A stretch of 64,000 nucleotides of DNA from Candidatus Nanoarchaeia archaeon (GTDB lineage Archaea > Nanobdellota > Nanobdellia > Woesearchaeales > SKIA01). The position numbers were made by a program, and so were the translations under genes. Below are positions 17,764 to 52,397 of this stretch, piece by piece. The notes under the pieces were generated by a model. That model had not been told where the DNA came from, ran no database searches, and was given only the letters and a program-made list of their open reading frames with translations. The stretch lies in the NCBI GenBank assembly GCA_028279685.1, contig JANQNG010000031.1:124001-188000 (forward strand). The letters run 5' to 3'. The stretch's first letter is position 1, and every line of letters starts with the position of its first letter.

Positions 17764-18183
17764 ATGAAATATTATATTGACACATGCATATGGCTTAATC
17801 TATTCAAGAAAGAAGGAGATCCATCAAAAGGAGTTCCTTACTGGGAGATAGCAGAAAGATTTATAGAAGAAGTAATTTCATTTGGGGATAAAATTTATTT
17901 TTCTGGTATCATACTTAAAGAGATAAAAAATAAACTTCCAGAAGAAAAATACGAAGAAAGCATTATTTATTTGAAAGAAAAATCATTAAAAATTAACTTA
18001 ATAGAAGATGACTATTCATTTGCTAGAAAACTAGAATCTGAATGGGAATATGAAATAGGCTTTTATGATTGTATTCATGTTGCAGTGTGCAAAAGATTAG
18101 AAATGATTTTAGTAACGAGAGATAAAGCACTCATCAAAGAAGCAAAGAAATATATTTCTGTAATTAGACCTGAGGAGTTATAA
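17764..18183 (+). CDS. PIN-domain protein (VapC-like)
   Basis: MKYYIDTCIWLNLFKKEGD ... YDCIHVAVCKRLEMILVTRDKALIKEAKK. Confidence 0.82.
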   Translation: MKYYIDTCIWLNLFKKEGDPSKGVPYWEIAERFIEEVISFGDKIYFSGIILKEIKNKLPEEKYEESIIYLKEKSLKINLIEDDYSFARKLESEWEYEIGFYDCIHVAVCKRLEMILVTRDKALIKEAKKYISVIRPEEL

Positions 18184-18519
18184 GTTGTTGACTTCTTCCA
18201 TTAATTTCTTATAATCATCAAAGCTCTTTATCTCTTTAGATAATTTCTTTCTTATTTCTCTAACCTCTTTTACAGAATCTCCTGTGTTTGGAATGATTCC
18301 TACCATACTTCTAATATCTTTTTCAATAACAAATCTCCTCACCGCATCACGAATAACATCAGATCTGTTGGCGTAAATTCCTTCTTTGACTAATTCATCC
18401 ATTCTTTTAATTAAGCCATGATTCATCCTGATTTGCATCGTTTCCATCACCATCGTAATGTTCATGTAATTGTTCTGATATTTAAATGTTTCGATTACAC
18501 AACCACTAGACATGCTCAA
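18178..18519 (-). CDS. Ribbon-helix-helix (CopG-like) protein
   Basis: METMQIRMNHGLIKRMDELVKEGIYANRSDVIRDAVRRFVIEK. Confidence 0.82.
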   Translation of the reverse strand: MSMSSGCVIETFKYQNNYMNITMVMETMQIRMNHGLIKRMDELVKEGIYANRSDVIRDAVRRFVIEKDIRSMVGIIPNTGDSVKEVREIRKKLSKEIKSFDDYKKLMEEVNNL

Positions 18520-19038: not shown

Positions 19039-19050
19039 AACTGTAAGAAG

Positions 19051-19143
19051 CATCACCTCCTAGCGAAGCCTTATTTTTATGATACGAAAACGCTAAAATC
19101 GTTTTGAAGGATTAAGTTAGGGTTCTGGCGGAGCGAGGTGATG
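19051..19143 (+). repeat. Palindromic structured element, family copy E1
   Basis: CATCACCTC / GAGGTGATG terminal stem enclosing CTAGCGAAG ... CGGAGC. Confidence 0.6.
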
Positions 19144-19162
19144 TGTTTTGTTAAATCAGCAC

Positions 19163-50217: not shown

Positions 50218-50231
50218 ATATTCTAGCACAT

Positions 50232-50334
50232 AAGGAATTACTGCCCAGCGAAGTTATCTTAATGCATTTTGAATTACGACAGAACTCGATTTGAGCTGAG
50301 ATTTGTACATAAGAACGAAGCGCAGTAATTCCTT
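50232..50334 (+). repeat. Palindromic structured element, family copy E2
   Basis: AAGGAATTACTGC / GCAGTAATTCCTT stem enclosing CCAGCGAAG ... CGAAGC. Confidence 0.65.
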
Positions 50335-50352
50335 GGTATAGTTTGTTCTTTC

Positions 50353-50460
50353 ATATTGGCAATACCTCGCTTCGTGTCGCCTATGGATTAGATAAGCAAA
50401 TCAAGAGTATAACAATACTAAGAGTACATTGAGTACTTCGCCGGGAGGTATTGCCAATAT
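50353..50460 (-). repeat. Palindromic structured element, family copy E3 (reverse orientation)
   Basis: ATATTGGCAATACCTC / GAGGTATTGCCAATAT 16-bp stem; reverse complement encloses CCGGCGAAG ... CGAAGC. Confidence 0.65.
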
Positions 50461-52143: not shown

Positions 52144-52201
52144 AGCATACCTAACAGAACATGGTTTATAAAATTAACCTTGATTAGATTACATGTAGTA
52201 T

Positions 52202-52301
52202 AAGCATTACTGCCCAGCGCAGTAATCATTTTTAGTTTCTTTTTCGCTAAAAATCGGTACGTGCAACAGATTGTACATGCAAACGGAGCGCAGTAATGCT
52301 T
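52202..52301 (+). repeat. Palindromic structured element, family copy E4
   Basis: AAGCATTACTGC / GCAGTAATGCTT stem enclosing CCAGCGCAG ... CGGAGC. Confidence 0.62.
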
Positions 52302-52397
52302 GGCTTACGCAACCACAACTCGTCAATGTCACAACCTAGTTGAGACAAGTTAACTATATAAATTCTGCAAACAAGGATTCAGTCGGAGGGATAACTA

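Follow-up and report, generated by a model that had tools for sequence, protein, structure and literature searches.

A dispersed hairpin family of Woesearchaeota, carried by mobile units and probably conserved as folded DNA

Four hairpin elements (E1 to E4) in the 64-kb stretch of archaeal DNA analysed here, which we call the window, are members of a dispersed hairpin family, well beyond what chance would produce. We consider it probable (about 0.68) that a DNA hairpin conserved in its shape travels in mobile units flanked by 9-bp target duplications, that these units are moved in trans and that the hairpin is recognised in the form of a folded strand.

The hairpin family, its anatomy and its distribution

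The arms and inner motifs that an earlier note on this DNA had described at 19051-19143 are present in the sequence, in the order CATCACCTC, CTA, GC, GAA, GCC, interior, GGC, GGA, GC, GAGGTGATG, with the inner motifs CTAGCGAAG at 19060-19068 and GGCGGAGC at 19127-19134. Its further claim of three other loci with the same architecture and differing stems was confirmed: when the window was scanned for sites that combine the inner motif with a long flanking stem, exactly E1 to E4 came back. E2 and E3 together make up a single inverted-pair unit, which as a whole is homologous to the pairs at L097 and L098. In the following list, the inner stem, the 3' pair step and the 3' arm of E1 are read from the sequence, and the 3' side of the loop from loop conservation together with the sequence.

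19046..19148, + strand: E1, single hairpin, whole covariance-model match (60.5 bits, E=1.9e-12 genome-wide; 67.2 bits with a second model)
19051..19059, + strand: E1 5' stem arm CATCACCTC, pairing with 19135-19143; the homologous stem covaries
19060..19062, + strand: E1 3-nt 5' bulge CTA; CTA, CCA or CTT in 72 of 77 copies, and a three-column register shift in the mutual information (MI) scan
19063..19064, + strand: E1 GC pair step, 5' side, with 19133-19134; invariant in alignment A1, GT/AC in other genomes
19065..19067, + strand: E1 GNA/GNA internal loop, 5' side (GAA); GNA/GNA in 71 of 77 copies
19068..19070, + strand: E1 inner stem GCC, with GGC at 19127-19129
19127..19129, + strand: E1 inner stem GGC
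19130..19132, + strand: E1 GNA/GNA internal loop, 3' side (GGA)
19133..19134, + strand: E1 GC pair step, 3' side
19135..19143, + strand: E1 3' stem arm GAGGTGATG
50231..50335, + strand: E2, one hairpin of an inverted pair, CTGC-type stem (87.8 bits)
50355..50458, - strand: E3, second hairpin of the pair, inverted, CCTC-type stem (88.6 bits)
52200..52303, + strand: E4, single hairpin element (71.8 bits)

A GyrI-like gene (PF06445; also Cass2) has its stop codon 7 nt ahead of E1, and a Fic gene lies downstream of the element. Elsewhere in the window, a PIN-domain gene (+) and a ribbon-helix-helix gene (-) stand tail to tail at 17764-18519, a layout unusual for a VapBC-like pair, and a direct repeat of ~350 bp with 66% identity occupies 966-1316 and 2007-2357.

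Across the family, a free stem of 10-14 bp is followed by a 3-nt 5' bulge (mostly CYA), two G-C pairs, a GNA/GNA loop and further pairs, with an interior of ~60 nt and a total length of roughly 100 bases. The GAA/GRA loop suggested earlier holds as a sheared-type internal loop that is kept, but not in its specificity: the loop is GNA opposite GNA with N free, in 71/77 copies of the window's genome and 30/35 of a set centred on a second genome (G010). Pairing was assessed in an alignment of 22 pattern matches with good stems (A1), where 93.2% of cells pair compared to 75.0% after shuffling, and where 76 both-side changes were counted compared to 24.9 in the shuffles, none of 500 reaching as high. 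A second alignment of 55 sequences from the window's genome and others, which was fitted to the structure and therefore leans towards it, gave 263 both-side changes compared to 76.8 (0/500). When column pairs were ranked by MI-APC, which assumes no structure in the ranking although its 75 copies had been aligned with the covariance model, the stem pairs came top with a column sum of 106 and the inner pairs next with a column sum of 109, a shift of three that is due to the 3-nt bulge. The bulge and the register proposed in the earlier note were thus recovered. The pairs inside the bulge covary as well, GC changing to GT/AC in other genomes and T-A to C-G, and neither RNAalifold nor MI found conserved helices in the ~60-nt interior. 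A kink-turn was considered and rejected, as two conserved G-C pairs stand between the bulge and the GNA loop with its sheared G.A pairs.

Chance as the source of the motif matches had been raised as an objection, and the inner motif CYNGCGMAG occurs 7 times in the window compared to a shuffled mean of 1.68. In the window's genome (1.9 Mb in 80 contigs) a two-ended pattern gave 31 matches compared to 1 for the reversed control, and a covariance model built from A1 found 79 copies at E<=0.1, with a best E of 1.5e-22, E-values that are rough by the tool's own statement. Such a search, which the earlier note had put forward, thus yielded further copies in the genome and its relatives, with compensatory changes beyond the first four. 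The second covariance model detected the family in 27/288 genomes of the order (Candidatus Woesearchaeota); in a sample drawn from the phylum it was present in 18/371 genomes, all 18 of the same order, the number of the 371 that lie outside the order not being given. Three genomes from the family to which the window's genome belongs lack the hairpins, and this patchy, multi-copy distribution is the behaviour of a mobile element. Two pattern matches in viral contigs were not recovered by the covariance model, and bacterial pattern matches were discarded, since they miss the extended stem and look like chance.

Mobile units and their ends

Beyond what the earlier note had described, the hairpins sit within mobile units, which end in terminal inverted repeats and are flanked by 9-bp target duplications. 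In the window's genome, in G010 and in other Woesearchaeota the hairpins are often paired in inverted orientation, + then -, a few bases apart, and units of ~175-350 bp hold one hairpin, or two with the second inverted, between terminal inverted repeats. In the Woesearchaeota metagenome-assembled genome (MAG) JACPCA01 (G060 and G130 share contig numbers and places, and both are this assembly) a hairpin pair lies between GGCTCTGTC-type terminal repeats, and identical 9-bp repeats flank the 11 distinct units checked, for example GATTTAATC, AGCACATCT, ATCTGGAAA and CTTCAAGCC. The window's genome has a unit with the same ends and the 9-bp duplication TAGCCAGAA (L110, C24:111864-112147), and a single-hairpin unit across pairs of contig ends, with the duplication TCGACTAAC at C7/C36 and GAATGGTCT at C6/C57. 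The ends of contigs C6, C7, C36 and C57 are assembly breaks inside this single-hairpin miniature inverted-repeat transposable element (MITE), and the repeats and duplications show two contig-pair joins.

Perfect 9-bp duplications are found at L110, L134, L136, L228 and L231, and in a joint test of terminal repeat and duplication 21/101 clusters, one locus being counted twice (L153 = L219), lay above 99% of the null. Terminal inverted repeats are present at the family level in JACPCA, DUFX, PCXZ, WJKL and part of the window's genome. Genomes also differ in the presence of a unit: the rpl14-rpl24 junction holds one in G130 and none in G193.

At least five unlike terminal repeats surround the same hairpin, with 9-bp or near 9-bp duplications (GGCTCTGTAGAA, GGCTCTGTCCCG, GGTGCAGTCAAG, GGCAAAGTCAAG, GGTTAAGTTACC, GTATGTGCATAG), the GTATGTGCATAG ends in G010 overlapping the hairpin stem itself. 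Conversely, ~200-bp MITEs of G130 with GGCTCTGTAGAAAAT ends have a quite different palindrome inside: sharing the ends does not entail carrying the hairpin module. Hairpin and terminal repeats are therefore separable, and the hairpin is a module and not the recognition end of the transposase. The GGCTCTGTAGAAAAT-ended MITE family (L270, L276-L279, L271 and L272 of G130) contains a long GGGGCGCCGC..GCGGCGCCCC palindrome and includes ~400-bp versions with further nested inserts.

At most clusters of the window's genome, E1 among them, neither terminal repeats nor a target duplication could be detected, yet their stems are good, so a decay of the ends alone needs explaining. Target duplications of the single copies of this genome, taken as a group, are about as frequent as the null, bar a few exact 9-mers. 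E1 itself, where terminal repeats and a target duplication were looked for without success, is either an old copy with decayed ends or a hairpin left or moved without ends. No transposase gene lies inside the units, and in G130 the two wider spans between terminal repeats that were read contained nothing but unrelated genes. Searches of some genomes with PF01797, PF01609 and PF13737 returned no autonomous relative or transposase gene: PF01797 (Y1_Tnp) had no match in the window's genome or in G010, with positive controls in order and 11 other genomes of the order positive, and the IS5/IS903-type transposases PF01609 and PF13737 had none in the genomes searched, which are incomplete MAGs.

We propose that a transposase acting in trans, with a 9-bp staggered cut, would move the units, while the module would be read as a folded DNA strand by a structure-reading protein. 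The fold could be a cruciform, or a hairpin that a single strand forms while the DNA is being replicated or transposed, presenting the bulge and the sheared G-A loop as landmarks on one strand. Candidate benefits of the module to the unit are synapsis, replication-linked mobilisation or the targeting of resident hairpins.

Alternatively, the arms could be the long terminal inverted repeats of a ~100-bp MITE, read by a transposase as double-stranded DNA, such that the hairpin never forms. Single hairpins of G010 that have duplications of 8-9 bp directly at the ends of the stem (L112:4016, L067:2529, L115) are what this would predict, and matched DNA half-sites would also give complementarity restricted to Watson-Crick pairs. 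However, GNA/GNA is kept as a mismatch, a direct and not an inverted repeat, within otherwise complementary arms, the left arm is 3 bases longer, and most units whose ends are defined have their terminal repeats beyond the hairpin, these repeats varying between genomes while the core stays. We therefore regard long terminal repeats as an unlikely explanation.

DNA-level or RNA-level constraint

The composition of the stem pairs allowed us to ask at which level the complementarity is kept. Across the ten inner stem pairs in the window's genome, 853 cells that include a few copies twice, we counted 813 Watson-Crick pairs, 13 G.T, 13 A.C and 14 others. For comparison, 14 distinct tRNAs from the same loci have 28 G.U in 304 pairs, a control that is good for the rate of G.U and not of A.C, since ARAGORN may omit mismatched positions from stems. 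The cross-genome set holds 9 G.T, 3 A.C and 8 others, which are small numbers, and pooling three partly overlapping sets gave 28 G.T compared to 19 A.C, a difference that is not significant and leans to G.T. Selection on a transcript would tolerate G.U and not A.C, so the equal counts of G.T and A.C indicate that the complementarity of the stem is most likely constrained at the DNA level. The earlier note had spoken of a 'conserved RNA (or hairpin-DNA) structure'; the conserved hairpin with compensatory changes is borne out, the RNA alternative is not supported, given the matching rarity of G.T and A.C, the missing Rfam match and the missing interior helix, and the hairpin-DNA alternative fits better.

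The step from a DNA-level constraint to the reading of a folded strand is one that we infer, and it draws on strand asymmetry: the loop is GNA/GNA on one strand and TNC/TNC on the opposite one, which would favour a folded single strand over paired duplex half-sites. Instead of a folded-strand reader, a protein binding double-stranded DNA and needing inverted half-sites may be responsible.

Gene context, based on ORF calls, bears on two further alternatives. The clusters tested are all intergenic, none of 61 falling within an ORF of at least 90 aa, and the median distance is 20 nt to the 3' end of the adjacent gene and 73 nt to a 5' end. Such 3'-end placement is expected from insertions that survive outside promoters and need not mean function. 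It would also suit a structured RNA family, made up of 3'-UTR hairpins or of genes for small RNAs, whose copies have multiplied and whose stem is selected in the transcript, as would the strong covariation, the 20:10 bias towards the strand of the neighbouring gene and the fact that GNA/GNA loops are known in RNA too. Nevertheless we judge such an RNA family to be quite improbable: the stem lacks the tolerance of G.U seen in tRNAs, the strand bias is not significant (p=0.099), the interior has no covarying helices and Rfam gave no family match, either for the window at gathering thresholds or for the E2/E3 stretch at relaxed E-values. Against it there is also the distribution of the copies, which are numerous and patchy, missing in three genomes of the same family and associated with target duplications.

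Another reading takes the elements to be transcription terminators or insulators, with a bidirectional pair shielding convergent genes and with mobility as an incidental trait. It would likewise agree with the inverted pairs and the 3'-end placement, but is very improbable, as just 14/61 clusters lie in intervals between convergent genes, the orientation bias falls short of significance, the constraint is not RNA-like and archaeal termination uses U-rich tracts rather than hairpins.

On a practical matter, counting G.T against A.C is a cheap test that separates DNA-level from RNA-level covariation, and covariation at the DNA level is a trap for covariance-model searches for new RNAs. If the preferred reading of a folded DNA strand is true, the order would have an order-wide DNA-level hairpin code, in which hundreds of compensatory changes have left the shape intact and brought in no RNA-like G.U pairs, and one folded shape would be common to mobile units with different ends.

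Known systems and nested insertions

Prokaryotic MITEs are short, non-coding, multicopy and intergenic, have terminal inverted repeats and direct target duplications and are moved in trans (PMC10969869). The units described here agree at the family level in their terminal inverted repeats, a fixed 9-bp duplication, the lack of a transposase gene and a length below ~600 bp, and they too may be moved in trans; they differ in the conserved internal hairpin, whose fixed bulge, GNA/GNA loop and covarying stem are common to units with at least five unlike terminal repeats. The family's units are thus a MITE variant with a shared internal hairpin. Archaeal MITEs named in a review are those of Sulfolobus, Halobacterium, Haloquadratum and others (PMC10969869), and a search of one open-access literature library returned none from Woesearchaeota.

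Repetitive extragenic palindromes (REPs) occur in high copy number, as inverted dimers of related hairpins placed downstream of genes (PMC3733652, PMC2817692). All three traits recur here, but the hairpin, at ~100 nt, is about three times longer than the 20-40 of a REP, GTAG or its complement stands near the foot in 10/79 copies and CGTC in 1/79, so that the tag is not a feature of the family, and Y1_Tnp is missing from both the window's genome and G010. Since 9-bp target duplications are not expected of a Y1 enzyme either, we rejected mobilisation as REP/BIME-like repeats by a RAYT (Y1 tyrosine transposase), which has next to no probability.

The attC sites of integrons are likewise imperfect, strand-specific DNA hairpins with extrahelical bases and an internal loop, recognised by their shape; here, in contrast, the conserved and variable parts are swapped, the outer stem being free and the inner features fixed. 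An attC identity was rejected, with R'' RYYYAAC and R' GTTRRRY found together in 0/79 copies. Terminal repeats that start with GG and 9-bp duplications recall IS903-type (IS5 family) or IS1-type elements, from which the units differ in that no PF01609 or PF13737 transposase was found in the genomes searched. A further resemblance is to mitochondrial double-hairpin elements (e.g. PMC5910586). These are likewise palindromic and mobile, each comprising two hairpins, and no transposase is known to move them. They belong to an unrelated genome, and the present units differ from them in having terminal repeats and 9-bp duplications.

We also considered that the hairpin is a module mobile in its own right, which an archaeal folded-strand reader that recognises the bulge and the GNA/GNA loop would move or target, and that it spreads by itself as well as inside transposons whose ends are unrelated, the bulge junction ..CTGCC^YAGCG being the preferred entry point; we hold this to be doubtful. 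To our knowledge, structure-reading DNA proteins come mainly from integrons, REP/RAYT systems and single-strand transposons, and none was tied to Woesearchaeota in this analysis.

The junction ..CTGCC^YAGCG contains inserts, either small palindromes or an entire further hairpin, at no fewer than four loci in the window's genome (L080/L082, L084, L095:8987, L106) and two in JACPCA (L133, L130:7556), and the outer stem can still pair. Such nesting may point to a particular role for the bulge, structural tolerance being the simpler reading. At L061 and L114 of G010 hairpin A lies within hairpin B, right after the 5' core of B, so hairpins nest. Finally, at L274 (G130:C36:12442-12641) the outer part of hairpin B of a pair is joined to the outer part of hairpin A, with normal ends, as if by recombination within the pair.
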